This document shows positions 2,718 through 14,355 of a stretch of DNA of 14,612 nucleotides, piece after piece. The notes beneath the pieces are model-generated. The model saw nothing but the letters and a program-made list of their open reading frames with translations. It was not told where the DNA came from and searched no databases. Source of the DNA: Gallicola sp. (GTDB lineage: Bacteria; Bacillota; Clostridia; Tissierellales; Peptoniphilaceae); NCBI GenBank assembly GCA_012798975.1, contig JAAZME010000004.1, positions 1-14,612 of the forward strand, written 5' to 3'. The position numbers were made by a program, and so were the translations under genes. How positions within the stretch are numbered: position 1 is the stretch's first letter; each line of letters begins with the position of its first letter.

Positions 2718-2788
2718 AAAAGATAGAGGAAGATAGGGATGAAAGAAAAAGTGTGGAATGTGAAAGAGGGGAGAGGGGAGTTGTGGAG

Positions 2789-3071
2789 GAAAATAAGAAG
2801 TACGCTTATTTTCTACGCATGAAAAAAGGCGTCGTTAGACGCTCCTCTGCTCCTAAGCGTTGGGGTGTAAAAGGAGGGGGTCTGGGGGAGGATATGGCCG
2901 ATCGTTTCTAGCCAATCGCAAAATACCGCTCTTGGGAAACGAGTGGCATGAGGCCTGCTTGTCAAATCAAAAGACCTGATTTGAGCTAGGGCTTTAGGAG
3001 AATCTTGGCGCTCTTCATCCTCCCCCAGAGATGGAAACTAATACCTTTCTCATACTATAAAAGTATAGAAA
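2789..3071 (+). ncRNA. Candidate structured RNA, copy A
   Basis: The region can fold on the + strand into a series of helices. GAAAATAAG (2789-2797) pairs with CTTATTTTC (2805-2813). GCGTC (2829-2833) pairs with GACGC (2838-2842). A 12 bp closing helix joins CTGGGGGAGGAT (2882-2893) to ATCCTCCCCCAG (3017-3028). Inside it lie CCGCTC/GAGTGG (2926-2931 with 2941-2946) and TCAAATC/GATTTGA (2962-2968 with 2978-2984). A last hairpin pairs TTTCT and ATACT (3046-3056, one bulged C) with AGTAT and AGAAA (3062-3071). Copy B keeps these helices with compensating changes in the first and last. I do not recognise the family, and transcript boundaries are unknown. Confidence 0.55.
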
Positions 3072-3176
3072 TAAGAAATTTAGGGCTTAGTTTTCTAGGT
3101 AAAGACTCATTGCTATAAAATCTTCTTGCTACTTTAGAAGTGCTTTTACAGTATACTTATATTAATTAAATATATT

Positions 3177-3256
3177 ACTTCGCCACCGGGTGAAGTGGAA
3201 GGTATCGTATCTCTCCGTTAGGTCTAAGAAGGAGAGATGGGATGCCTTCTTTTTTT
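3177..3256 (+). terminator. Two-hairpin intrinsic terminator or small RNA
   Basis: ACTTCGCC (3177-3184) pairs with GGTGAAGT (3189-3196) around the tetraloop ACCG. One base later a second, long hairpin pairs 3198-3216 with 3231-3249 in 18 of 19 positions, directly followed by seven T. The second hairpin is a very strong intrinsic terminator. A TATACT hexamer at 3152-3157 could be a -10 box giving a separate small RNA of about 90 nt, but its only -35-like partner (TTGCTA, 3126-3131) is 20 nt away. The alternative is that it ends a longer transcript running through copy A. Confidence 0.7.
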
Positions 3257-3280
3257 AGGGAAAAGATAGGGAGTAGGAAA

Positions 3281-3665
3281 AGGCGGGATTGCTTCGCAAC
3301 CTAGGCTCTAGGCGGCACACCTGTAGTAAGAAAAGAGTGAAGTGTGAAAGAGTGGAGAGGGGAGTTGTGGTGGAAAATGCGGAGCATTTTCTTCGTATAT
3401 AAAAGGCGTCGTTAGACGCTCCCTTGCTCCTAAGCGTTGGGGGTGTAAAAGGAGGGGGTCTGGGGGAGGATATGGCCGATCGTTTCTAGCCAATCGCAAA
3501 ATACCGCTCTTGGGAAACGAGTGGCATGAGGCCTGCTCGTCAAATCTAAAGACCTGATTTGAGCTAGGGCTTCAGGAGAATCTTAGGTGCCCTTCATCCT
3601 TCGCCAGGATTGGAAACTAAGACCTTTCTTGTACTGTAAATGTACAGGAAGAAGATATCTAGAGC
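3281..3665 (+). repeat. Long direct repeat, copy B
   Basis: Second copy of the element at 2642-3085, same orientation, about 640 nt downstream. Its core (3426-3584) has four differences from copy A. It starts with one mini-hairpin rather than three, then a divergent purine-rich stretch, then the conserved core. It lies between the two-hairpin terminator and the MATE gene, so it could be part of that gene's long leader; no terminator is seen between copy B and the gene. Confidence 0.85.
3373..3650 (+). ncRNA. Candidate structured RNA, copy B
   Basis: This is the equivalent fold of copy A. GAAAATGC (3373-3380) pairs with GCATTTTC (3384-3391) around a GGA loop, where copy A uses a different helix sequence at the same place. 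CTGGGGGAGGAT (3460-3471) pairs with ATCCTTCGCCAG (3596-3607) in 11 of 12 positions, one of them a G-T wobble. The inner CCGCTC/GAGTGG and TCAAATC/GATTTGA hairpins are unchanged. The last hairpin pairs TTCTTGTAC (3626-3634) with GTACAGGAA (3642-3650), again with different bases from copy A. Retained pairing with changed sequence supports an RNA role; identity is unknown. Confidence 0.55.
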
Positions 3666-3738: not shown

Positions 3739-3786
3739 AGTCAAGACATAGGTAAGTGTTTGTATCACGACAGAGGTTAGTATTTT
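3739..3786 (+). repeat. Second insertion-sequence-like end, inverted to the one at 177-250
   Basis: Two tandem units of about 24 nt: one centred on GACATAGGTAAGTGTTTG and one on TCACGACAGAGGTTAG. The 23 nt at 3741-3763 are the exact reverse complement of 196-218. The second unit resembles the outermost unit of the left array, which reads TCACGACATGGGTAAG on its own strand. The pair therefore forms an inverted repeat about 3.5 kb apart around the importer and the RNA repeats. No transposase lies between them. Confidence 0.5.
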
Positions 3787-3806
3787 AAATATTTATGGGG
3801 GAGAAT

Positions 3807-5129
3807 ATGGTAGAGATTAAGAGGGATTTTATAAAGTATGTAAGCTTGAATGTGATGAGCATGATTGCTTTATCTTGTTATATATTAGGAGATACGTATT
3901 TTGTGGCTAAGGGTTTAGGAGGGGAAGGGCTGGCGGCTCTTAATTTTTCGATTTCTGTTTATAGTATTTTAAATGGATTCGGACTGATGATCGGGATCGG
4001 AGGCGGAACGGATTATTCTTTAACTCAGCATAAAGAAGGAGAAGGGAATAGATCCTTCAGCCATGCAGTGTTTATAGGAGGATGCGCGGCTCTTGTTTTT
4101 GTACTGATGGGGATCTTCTTTACGGAGCCTTTGTCTAATGTTCTTGGAGCGGAAGGAGCAACTTTGCCTTTGACCGTTACCTATCTTCGGACGATCCTTT
4201 TAGCGGCTCCTTTTTTCATTTTTAATAATATAAGTCTTGCTTATATTCGAAACGATAACAATCCAAAACTTCCAATGATTGCGATGATTACCAGCAGTTT
4301 TTCGAATATTGTACTGGATTATGTATTTATGTTTGTATTTGGCTGGGGGATGTTCGGAGCGGCCTTTGCTACGTCTTTATCTCCTGTTATAAGCCTCCTT
4401 ATTTTATCGAAGCATTTTAGAACTCAGGCAGGATTTAAATGGATAAAAACAAAAATTAGTTTAAATAGGATTTTTGCGATGGCATCTTATGGTTTTTCTT
4501 CTTTTATAGTAGAAATCGCCTCAGCTGTTTCTCTGATCACCTTTAATCTTATTATTATGAATATAAGAGGAACGATAGGTGTAGGGGCTTATGGGATCGT
4601 TGCGAATATCGCTTTAATCGAAACAGCTGTTTTTGTGGGGATTTCTCAAGGAATTCAGCCTCTAGCAAGCAGATCCTTCAGTTTAGGAAAAAAGACAGAT
4701 CTGAAATTTATTTTTAGAGCTTCTTGGATTACGGCGGCTATAGTGATTATCCTTTGTTATGGAATCGTGTTTTTCTTTGCAGAGGAAATAGGAATGCTGT
4801 TTAACAGCCAAGGGGATCCAGAACTTCTGGGCTTAGCGGTAGAGGGTCTTCGGATTTATTTTATTGGATACTTTTTCGCAGGTTTTAATATTGTGACTAT
4901 TGCTTATTTAAGTGCTGTATTAAAAACAAAGGAGGGGATGTTTTTATCCATACTTCGAAGCATTGCAATACTTATTCCCATGGTTTTTATACTCCAGGAA
5001 TACTTTAAGATGAGAGGGGCCTGGCTTTCCTTTGTATTTACAGAGGGAATTGTGTTTTTAATTATGATGGGTATATTCTATAGTGCAAAGAGAAATAGGA
5101 AAGAAAGGAAGACCGCAGATGAAATCTAG
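3807..5129 (+). CDS. MATE family efflux transporter
   Basis: Integral membrane protein of about 440 aa, the normal size for MATE exporters, which expel cationic drugs or metabolites in exchange for Na+ or H+. Around twelve hydrophobic segments are visible, in two halves joined near residue 220. N-terminal family features include GDTYFVAKGLGGEGLAALNF and a glycine-rich GIGGGTDYSL stretch, and the second half carries GVGAYGIVANIALIETAVF and GISQGIQPLASRSF, a typical MATE repeat. The ATG at 3807 is preferred because GGGGGAG (3797-3803) precedes it, though the spacing is short; the in-frame ATG at 3795 has no clear ribosome binding site and would add four residues. Its end overlaps the acetyltransferase start by 11 nt. 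Substrate is unknown. Confidence 0.9.
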   Translation: MVEIKRDFIKYVSLNVMSMIALSCYILGDTYFVAKGLGGEGLAALNFSISVYSILNGFGLMIGIGGGTDYSLTQHKEGEGNRSFSHAVFIGGCAALVFVLMGIFFTEPLSNVLGAEGATLPLTVTYLRTILLAAPFFIFNNISLAYIRNDNNPKLPMIAMITSSFSNIVLDYVFMFVFGWGMFGAAFATSLSPVISLLILSKHFRTQAGFKWIKTKISLNRIFAMASYGFSSFIVEIASAVSLITFNLIIMNIRGTIGVGAYGIVANIALIETAVFVGISQGIQPLASRSFSLGKKTDLKFIFRASWITAAIVIILCYGIVFFFAEEIGMLFNSQGDPELLGLAVEGLRIYFIGYFFAGFNIVTIAYLSAVLKTKEGMFLSILRSIAILIPMVFILQEYFKMRGAWLSFVFTEGIVFLIMMGIFYSAKRNRKERKTADEI

Positions 5130-13050: not shown

Positions 13051-14355
13051 ATGAAAAAAGCTATTTTATATGTGAATCAGTTTTTTGCAGGAATCGGCGG
13101 TGAAGATACAGCTGATTTAGAGCCTGTGATAAAGAAAGAAAAGATTGGGCCAGCATTATCTTTGGATAAGTATTTAGAAGCCGAAATAACGCATACTGTT
13201 TATTGTGGCGATAATTTTATGGGTTCAAATACAAAGGAAGCAGTTTCGAAAATAATTGAAATGCTGAAACCTCTTGAATTTGATATCTTTTTAGCTGGGC
13301 CGGCATTTCAAGCAGGCCGTTATGGGGTAGCTTGCGGTAATATCTGCAAGGCTGTGAAAGAAGAGTTTAATGTACCGGTGATTACATCCATGAATGAGGA
13401 AAATCCTGGTGTAGAAATGTTTAAAAAAGAGATGATTATTCTAAGAGGCGGAAAATCAGCAGCAAAAATGAAAAAAGATACAGAAGCTATGGCAAAGGTC
13501 GGGAATGTTTATCTTAAAGGAGAAAGACCAGGGCCTGCTGATGAGTATAACTTTTTTGAAAGAGGGATAAGAGATCAAGTTTGGCTTGATACACAAAAAA
13601 CTGCAGATCGAAGAGGGGTAGACATGCTGATAAAAAAATTAAGCAATGAATTTTATCAGACAGAACTTCCTATACCTAAAAAAGATGTAGTACCTATTGC
13701 AGATCCGATTAAAGATTTAAAAGAGGCTCGGATTGCTATTGTAAATACAGGAGGTATTGTACCGATAGATAATCCTGATAGAATACAATCGGCTTCTGCT
13801 ACACGCTGGGGAAGATACGATGCTTCTGGAATGGAACGATTAGAAGGCGGTGTGTTTAAAACGATACATGCAGGATTTGACCCGGCAGCTGCCGATGCAG
13901 ATCCGAATGTAATTGTCCCTTGGGATGTTATGAAAGAGATGGAAAAAGAAGGTGTTTATGGATCTTTGCATCCTTACTTTTATACAACAGTAGGAACAGG
14001 TACAACTCAAGCAGAAGCTTCGAGGATGGGAATTGAAATATATGATAAATTAAAAGAAGACCATGTTGATGGAGTTTTGCTGATCTCGACCTGAGGTACT
14101 TGTACTCGTTGCGGTGCAACGATCGTTAAAGAAATTGAAAGATTTGGGATACCTGTAGTACAGCTTTGCAACCTTGTTCCGGTAGCGATGACTGTAGGCA
14201 CGAACAAAATAGTTCCGACTATTTCTATTCCGTATCCGTTAGGAGATCCTCAAACTTCTAATGAGGAACAGTACAAACTGCGTTATAAAATTGTACGAAG
14301 AGCACTGGAAGCATTAACGGAAGAGATCACAGAACAAACGGTGTTTAAAGTTTAA
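13051..14355 (+). CDS. grdH: Betaine reductase component B selenoprotein, GrdH-like (UGA read as selenocysteine)
   Basis: Selenocysteine-containing subunit of component B, which cleaves the C-N bond of the bound substrate and passes a carboxymethyl group to selenoprotein A. The frame meets TGA at 14092-14094 after 347 codons, but continues in frame to TAA at 14353-14355 with the conserved sequence that family members have there, giving 434 residues with Sec348 and the motif U-G-T-C-T-R-C (348-354). A hairpin follows the UGA. N-terminal landmarks are VNQFFAGIGGEDTAD, GDNF, and AGPAFQAGRYGVACG (91-105). Annotation that treats TGA as stop would give a false 347 aa product lacking the redox centre. 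AGGAGGGG precedes the ATG. GrdF (sarcosine) is the main alternative. Confidence 0.9.
14092..14122 (+). promoter_or_regulatory. UGA selenocysteine codon and candidate bacterial SECIS hairpin
   Basis: After the UGA (14092-14094), TCGTTGC (14106-14112) pairs perfectly with GCAACGA (14116-14122) around the loop GGT (14113-14115). The loop GGU begins 19 nt after the UGA, the offset I remember for E. coli fdhF, where a GGU loop binds SelB. The hairpin lies within the coding region, as bacterial SECIS elements do. SelB binding is inferred. Confidence 0.75.

Follow-up and report, generated by a model that had tools for sequence, protein, structure and literature searches.

Element C, a double hairpin of 103 nt that occurs twice in the window (the whole 14,612-nt stretch of Gallicola sp. 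DNA analysed here), belongs to an apparently undescribed family of apparently mobile double hairpins. We regard it as about evenly probable that C is a non-autonomous mobile DNA element that moves with the probable help of a REP-associated tyrosine transposase (RAYT) or another HUH enzyme and that also travels as REP cargo. C is dispersed, uninterrupted forms of its targets exist (repeat B, REP palindromes and tRNA pieces), and a relative, C′, interrupts C itself; it is on such comparisons of sequence that its apparent mobility rests. C belongs among the dispersed hairpin elements, which are a known kind.

Repeat units of the window

The genome that supplied the window (G000; genomes carry G numbers and loci L numbers) amounts to 1.70 Mb in 375 contigs and is 82% complete. 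Between an ABC-transporter ATPase gene (1905–2627) and a MatE-family gene (3795–5129), the first-pass annotation had described two direct copies of a single RNA element of about 400 nt with a near-invariant core. The copies and the core are real, as positions 2862–3006 and 3440–3584 are direct copies with 98% identity over 145 nt and the flanking direct-repeat pieces are 78–90% identical (2747–2794/3331–3378, 90%; 2824–2880/3401–3457, 84%; 3007–3088/3586–3667, 78%). The single element, however, dissolves into four separate repeat units, Z, A, B and C, all on the forward strand. In copy 1, Z (2642–2731) is a run of small G+C-rich hairpins (AGGCGGGATTGC..GCAACC and others), A (2742–2816) is a purine-rich leader with the hairpin AAAATAAG/CTTATTTT, the arms of which differ among copies, and B is found in two parts, a left part (2817–2895) ending in the stem strand TCTGGGGGAGGA (2881–2892) and a right part (2999–3075) with the stem strand TCCTCCCCCAGA (3018–3029) and a 3′ hairpin. 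Between the two parts of B lies C (2896–2998), the double hairpin that is the invariant core and that scores 103.6 bits with the covariance model R1 described below. Copy 2 (3270–3655) consists of a shorter Z (3270–3323; repeat families D3, D6 and D12), A (3326–3399; hairpin AAAATGC/GCATTTT; D5), the left part of B (3400–3473; D1 and D4), C (3474–3576; R1 100.4 bits) and the right part of B (3577–3655; D2, 78% identical to copy 1).

A search of the same genome with positions 2740–3260 gave at least 50 matches, of which 48 lie away from the two copies, with 40 of 73 candidates scored and some matches being separate pieces of one place. By BLAST of the fetched own-genome loci, Z, A, B and C travel as separate pieces: Z was matched separately in, for example, L007, L010 and L012, A in many loci, and C is present without B in L007–L010, L012 and L027. 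Repeat B is itself free of C in L003, L004 and L023. In L003 and L004 the match covers 2808–2896 and resumes directly at 3009 (3009–3071), and in L004 this jump from 2896 to 3009 leaves the empty junction GGGGGAGGATATGAGGGCGAATCGCAACGCCCTTCATCCTCCCCC. C therefore interrupts B, and the 12-bp helix that had been seen to close around the core is B's own stem; it is perfect in copy 1 (2881–2892/3018–3029) and has nine Watson-Crick pairs, two G.U pairs and one mismatch in copy 2 (3459–3470/3597–3608). C enters B at a junction in the stem, not at the tip, and the right side of this junction is too diverged to judge target duplication; the right junction is seen again in L054, where another element lies inside C. 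Because the order of the units and the C junctions are identical in both copies, the simplest history is one in which C would have entered B and Z-A-B[C] was then duplicated in tandem.

The paired changes reported between the two copies are also genuine. The helix first given as GAAAATAAG/CTTATTTTC belongs to repeat A as its hairpin, which differs between copy 1 and copy 2 in the arms given above, and the 3′ hairpin, which is part of B, changes from TTTCT-c-ATACT/AGTAT-AGAAA to TTCTTGTAC/GTACAGGAA with one T.G pair. Compensating changes of this sort are nonetheless a general habit of the dispersed palindromes of this genome; among 31 matches to repeat A in own-genome loci, obtained with a loose expression and including a few that are not A, there are 19 distinct complementary variants of the arms.

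Two further features of the window were observed. A dispersed repeat (CTTACCTATGTCTTGACACA...) is present at 160–245 and, inverted and 3.5 kb away, at 3740–3794, so placed that it encloses the transporter operon together with the repeat stack; it occurs at four places in the genome, the others being C189:6185 and C352:9814. A GRDB-type selenoprotein gene (13051–14355) lies downstream of BCCT transporter and Gly_reductase genes. Its ORF ends at a TGA (14092–14094), and as an Rfam SECIS_4 match (14095–14132) follows directly behind, selenocysteine read-through is likely.

The family of C and comparable hairpin repeats

Model R1 was built from eight own-genome copies of C, and its E-values are rough. 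In the genome of the window it gave 30 matches at E up to 0.1; nested relatives cause some of these to overlap on the two strands. In the covariance-model search of relatives that had been proposed at the outset, 39 of the 130 genomes searched in the family (Anaerococcus included) had matches at E up to 1e-3, and 19 of 39 genera were represented; counted from the listing, 19 of the 130 genomes match at E up to 1e-5. Anaerococcus sp. Marseille-Q5996, which is placed in Peptoniphilaceae, also gave a hit. Two genomes in a class-wide sample of 391, at least 15 of which are in the family, matched at E up to 1e-5, and both belong to the family. No match fell outside the family among up to 376 class genomes, at a lower sensitivity of 10 candidates scored per genome versus 30 in the family search. 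At the DNA level, a search of 100 relatives had no match outside the genome of the window, and the covariance model alone reached the relatives.

Across the family the length of C is about 85–115 nt, and its copy number among relatives ranges from 0 to 45. The pattern for hairpin 2 was found at 45 places in G024, 18 in G037, seven in G031, six each in G057 and G059, five each in G048 and G162, and none in G000, with none for the reversed control. By rough ORF calls, five of 81 copies overlap an ORF of at least 100 aa, and the 32 copies with both neighbours assigned comprise 13 in convergent, two in divergent and 17 in codirectional settings. A 225-nt form from the genome of the window was considered as the parent of C and rejected; beside the Anaerococcus copies it reads as C with an inverted C′ inside.

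The statement of the first-pass annotation that no known RNA is matched held up. Rfam 15 had no match in the window at the gathering level; with the limit relaxed to E 10 it had a single one, at chance level (E 4.3), and it had none over C in 12 related loci. With respect to a phage or plasmid origin, blastn against both annotated collections returned nothing, and one C pattern had no exact match in viral contigs. A bacterial double-hairpin element of this kind is absent from the literature covered on REP, RAYT, family palindromes, double hairpins and loop insertion, which included few subscription journals, and none of the papers on a 'double-hairpin element' concerns a bacterium by its title.

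C resembles the REP, BIME and REPIN repeats and their RAYT (TnpA_REP) in its dispersed intergenic hairpins, its strictly complementary arms and the closeness of some copies to RAYT. Unlike a REP, C is composed of two unlike hairpins with conserved mismatches and sits inside REPs instead of being one, and the GTAG-type foot that the host REPs in G054, G057 and G031 carry at the 5′ end was seen on none of the C copies that were read. REP dimers are regularly inserted within longer palindromes in A. variabilis, T. roseum and H. neapolitanus, according to the available part of PMC3733652. In those nested dimers the REP is the guest, whereas here C is the guest in REPs and is also a host of REPs, as in two C copies of G031 (L241 and L242) that hold GTAG-type REPs inside hairpin 1, the reverse of the usual nesting.

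Like MITEs, some of which derive from IS200/IS605 ends, C is short, non-coding and multi-copy, with subterminal hairpins and no target duplication at the compared sites. For C, unlike the IS200/IS605-derived MITEs, no parent IS with C ends was found in the sequence read, and its sites are other hairpins instead of a fixed short target. The terminal inverted repeats and target duplication of a classical DDE-type MITE were not visible in the C copies with flanks. Compared by architecture only, C is also like the mitochondrial double-hairpin and repetitive hairpin elements, which form hairpins, are apparently mobile and occur both between genes and inside RNA genes (PMC2800124); these differ in being organellar and, in the accessible portion of that source, in having no reported RAYT link. 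The Rickettsia palindromic elements are likewise mobile palindromic repeats that enter genes (PMC3733652); they are described as lying in frame in protein genes, unlike the C copies with their rare overlap with ORFs.

Insertion sites and candidate enzymes

Short palindromes are interrupted by C in G054, G057, G031, G037 and G160. The pair of empty and filled sites in G160 is exact, with GGGGGACAGTCCTAAAGGACAGACCCCC beside a RAYT gene and GGGGGACAGTCCT-C-AAGGACAGACCCCC in L092. The filled form in G054, GGACCAAT-C-AAATTGGTCCCTAC, corresponds to an empty GTAGGGACCAATTTATTGGTCC on the other strand, which occurs 12 times in the fetched stretches, and most C copies of this genome are in the filled form. 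Flanks complementary over at least 6 bp were present in 45 of 113 copies, where copies from one genome are not independent, versus 7.5% of shuffles, and 56 of the 113 had 4 bp or less; with 45 such copies, the proposition that C always lies inside a palindrome was rejected. Target duplication does not exceed 1–2 nt at the C sites judged by eye (G160, G054 and the tRNA-Glu pieces), and a TC before C is a tendency only (21 of 44 GCAGA-type copies).

Pieces of tRNA flank 10 of 13 C copies at nine loci, where BLAST matched one side of each and the other side of tRNA-Glu (AAGCGG) was recognised by eye. The 5′ piece stops at the last base of the D-stem in five copies (three of tRNA-Glu and one each of tRNA-Phe and tRNA-Asp), and in the other five it is the 3′ piece that was matched, beginning either in the T-loop (two copies, tRNA-Met) or at the anticodon loop (three copies, tRNA-Asp). 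In the genome of the window, C′ is embedded in C in inverted orientation where the second hairpin has its base, and six of the eight R1 copies are in or beside repeat A, not in a loop; together with the stem junction in B, these copies speak against a strict rule of insertion into loops. Some clusters of tRNA genes hold extra, hairpin-broken tRNA fragments beside intact copies of that tRNA (L066, L071, L074, L089, L090, L093 and L153), and at about 1170–1370 of L066, beside a tRNA-Glu gene, there is another tRNA-like stretch that is apparently interrupted by hairpins. The tip of B (GTTGCGATTC, reverse strand) was also observed to recur where C enters long palindromes of other genera (L083 and L095), and B may itself be a family-wide palindrome.

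A large minority of the C copies occupies the would-be loop of another hairpin. C may insert as single-stranded DNA into stretches that are exposed as single strands, in cruciforms or lagging-strand hairpins, with an HUH enzyme, most likely a RAYT, cutting and joining it in trans; C would also be copied along, as cargo, with any moving REP in which it lies. More tentatively, C could be a loop-homing element, a second-order element on the RAYT/REP system whose single-stranded DNA would enter hairpin loops (REPs, tRNA-like folds and its own relatives) largely independently of sequence. The empty and filled C sites, some of them beside RAYT genes, are usable for asking how REP-type elements move and choose their targets.

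Judged from gene content and position, RAYT is the leading candidate enzyme for C. RAYT-type genes, defined as matches to NF047646 with E no higher than 1.5e-12 (a threshold chosen after viewing the list, where it shows a gap), are present in 21 of 130 family genomes, and in three of 130 above the NCBI curated cut-off. C is present in 12 of the 21 genomes with such a gene versus 27 of the 109 others (Fisher p = 0.0076, which ignores kinship), and 12 of the 39 C-positive genomes carry a RAYT-type gene. By hand count, four of the 12 genomes that carry both have C less than 7 kb from RAYT (six of 18 places in G037, two of two in G160, two of six in G057 and one of seven in G031); the other eight had no such closeness in the listed places, several of which are on other contigs. 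The RAYT gene is flanked by the kind of palindrome that hosts C in the five genomes inspected (G037, G160, G057, G031 and G054), and RAYT genes flanked by REPs have been reported (PMC6006769, available in part). An intact Y1 gene was not found in the C-bearing genomes G024 (one broken remnant), G048, G059 (73% complete) and G017, nor was any Y1 gene found in G000 at its 82% completeness.

It is possible, if unlikely, that C is moved by another transposase, either of the IS110 type with its bridge RNA or an unrecognised enzyme, and that the link to RAYT arises only because both share REPs as targets. Genomes without RAYT nevertheless retain C, and its two structured hairpins are reminiscent of IS110-type bridge RNAs. 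REPs are also targets of insertion sequences, with five IS families, IS110 most often, inserting into them (PMC1525189, in its available part). This explanation is countered by the absence of IS110 from five of 12 C-bearing genomes (G000, G054, G031, G017 and G030), with a weak match only in a sixth (G059), and by the stretches that were read, 20 extra ones included, in which no C-ended element with an ORF, as an autonomous form would be, was seen among several solo or damaged copies of hairpin 2. IS200 genes 200–300 bp from two C copies of G037 were set aside as neighbours only; the IS200 copy read (L173) has other ends. Just before an IS200-type transposase gene of the same genome there is an Rfam STnc490 match (L070, 1705–1820; 64.5 bits), perhaps an IS200 leader RNA.

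It is improbable that C has no special mobility at all and that it and the other palindromes spread through slippage, template switching and recombination among repeats, with nesting arising as a by-product. The repeats in the genome of the window are heavily mixed and partly broken, the stack in the window is itself a tandem duplication, and hairpins can be made and preserved by template switching (PMC8794818, partial text), but one and the same double hairpin, with sharp ends, is found again at many unrelated sites across 19 of 39 genera.

Base pairing in C

Alignment A3 combined the window with 93 of 155 loci, mostly the best-scoring ones, and its 123 matches gave 113 distinct rows; it left out, among others, most own-genome copies with C′ inside. 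In these rows, which were fitted to the structure of R1 and hence lean towards pairing, 92.9% of cells are paired versus 33–49% in slid controls, two-sided changes occur at 35 of 36 pairs, and the covariation score is 0.450 versus 0.123 when shuffled. The covariation of helices proposed from the two copies is thus confirmed strongly across the family. Two kinds of departure from Watson-Crick pairing are conserved, a TC/TC internal loop that is unpaired in 76 of 113 rows at each of two pairs and fixed G.U pairs in 106 and 73 of the 113 rows.

When the two fixed G.U columns (5–79 and 86–162) are left out, G.U occupies 20 of 3569 cells (0.56%; 199 of 3792 with them), little above A.C with 11, and 14 one-sided changes stand against 729 two-sided ones, where cells are not independent events. 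The control of 55 distinct tRNAs from nine related loci, in which ARAGORN favours paired stems, had G.U in 75 of 1162 cells (6.5%), with 11 one-sided and 48 two-sided changes, a wide difference from C. As a structured functional RNA, C would therefore have the expected covariation and lack a tRNA-like tolerance of G.U.

With one-sided changes far rarer than two-sided ones and G.U at 0.56%, the arms appear to be kept complementary at the level of DNA, and the scarcity of G.U favours evolution as a DNA palindrome over ordinary selection on RNA. Hairpins can arise and persist through template switching, with no need for compensation in steps, according to the available part of PMC8794818. If C is a mobile DNA element, the matching changes in its arms would come mostly from DNA-level processes, namely copying or template switching from one arm to the other together with enzymatic recognition of the hairpins, and selection on an RNA would not be their main source. 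The first-pass argument, that double changes imply selection on RNA or single-strand structure, was half right: the excess of two-sided changes stands, and the G.U frequency is unlike that of tRNAs. Its own counter-explanation, a mobile element behind the conservation, largely applies to what is apparently a mobile, dispersed double hairpin. The step from covariation to RNA is weakened, and C may still be transcribed.

It is quite improbable that C is a repeated functional RNA, a small RNA or cis element whose conserved mismatches mark an RNA fold or protein site, for although the two-sided changes, the fixed G.U pairs with the internal loop and the rare overlap with ORFs would all suit it, C interrupts tRNA pieces, REPs and other C copies, varies widely in number among relatives, has no Rfam match and shows little G.U outside the fixed columns. 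An apparently mobile DNA palindrome can carry many double compensating changes, so covariation alone is no proof of RNA, and the scarcity of G.U offers an easy further check on other elements proposed to be RNAs.
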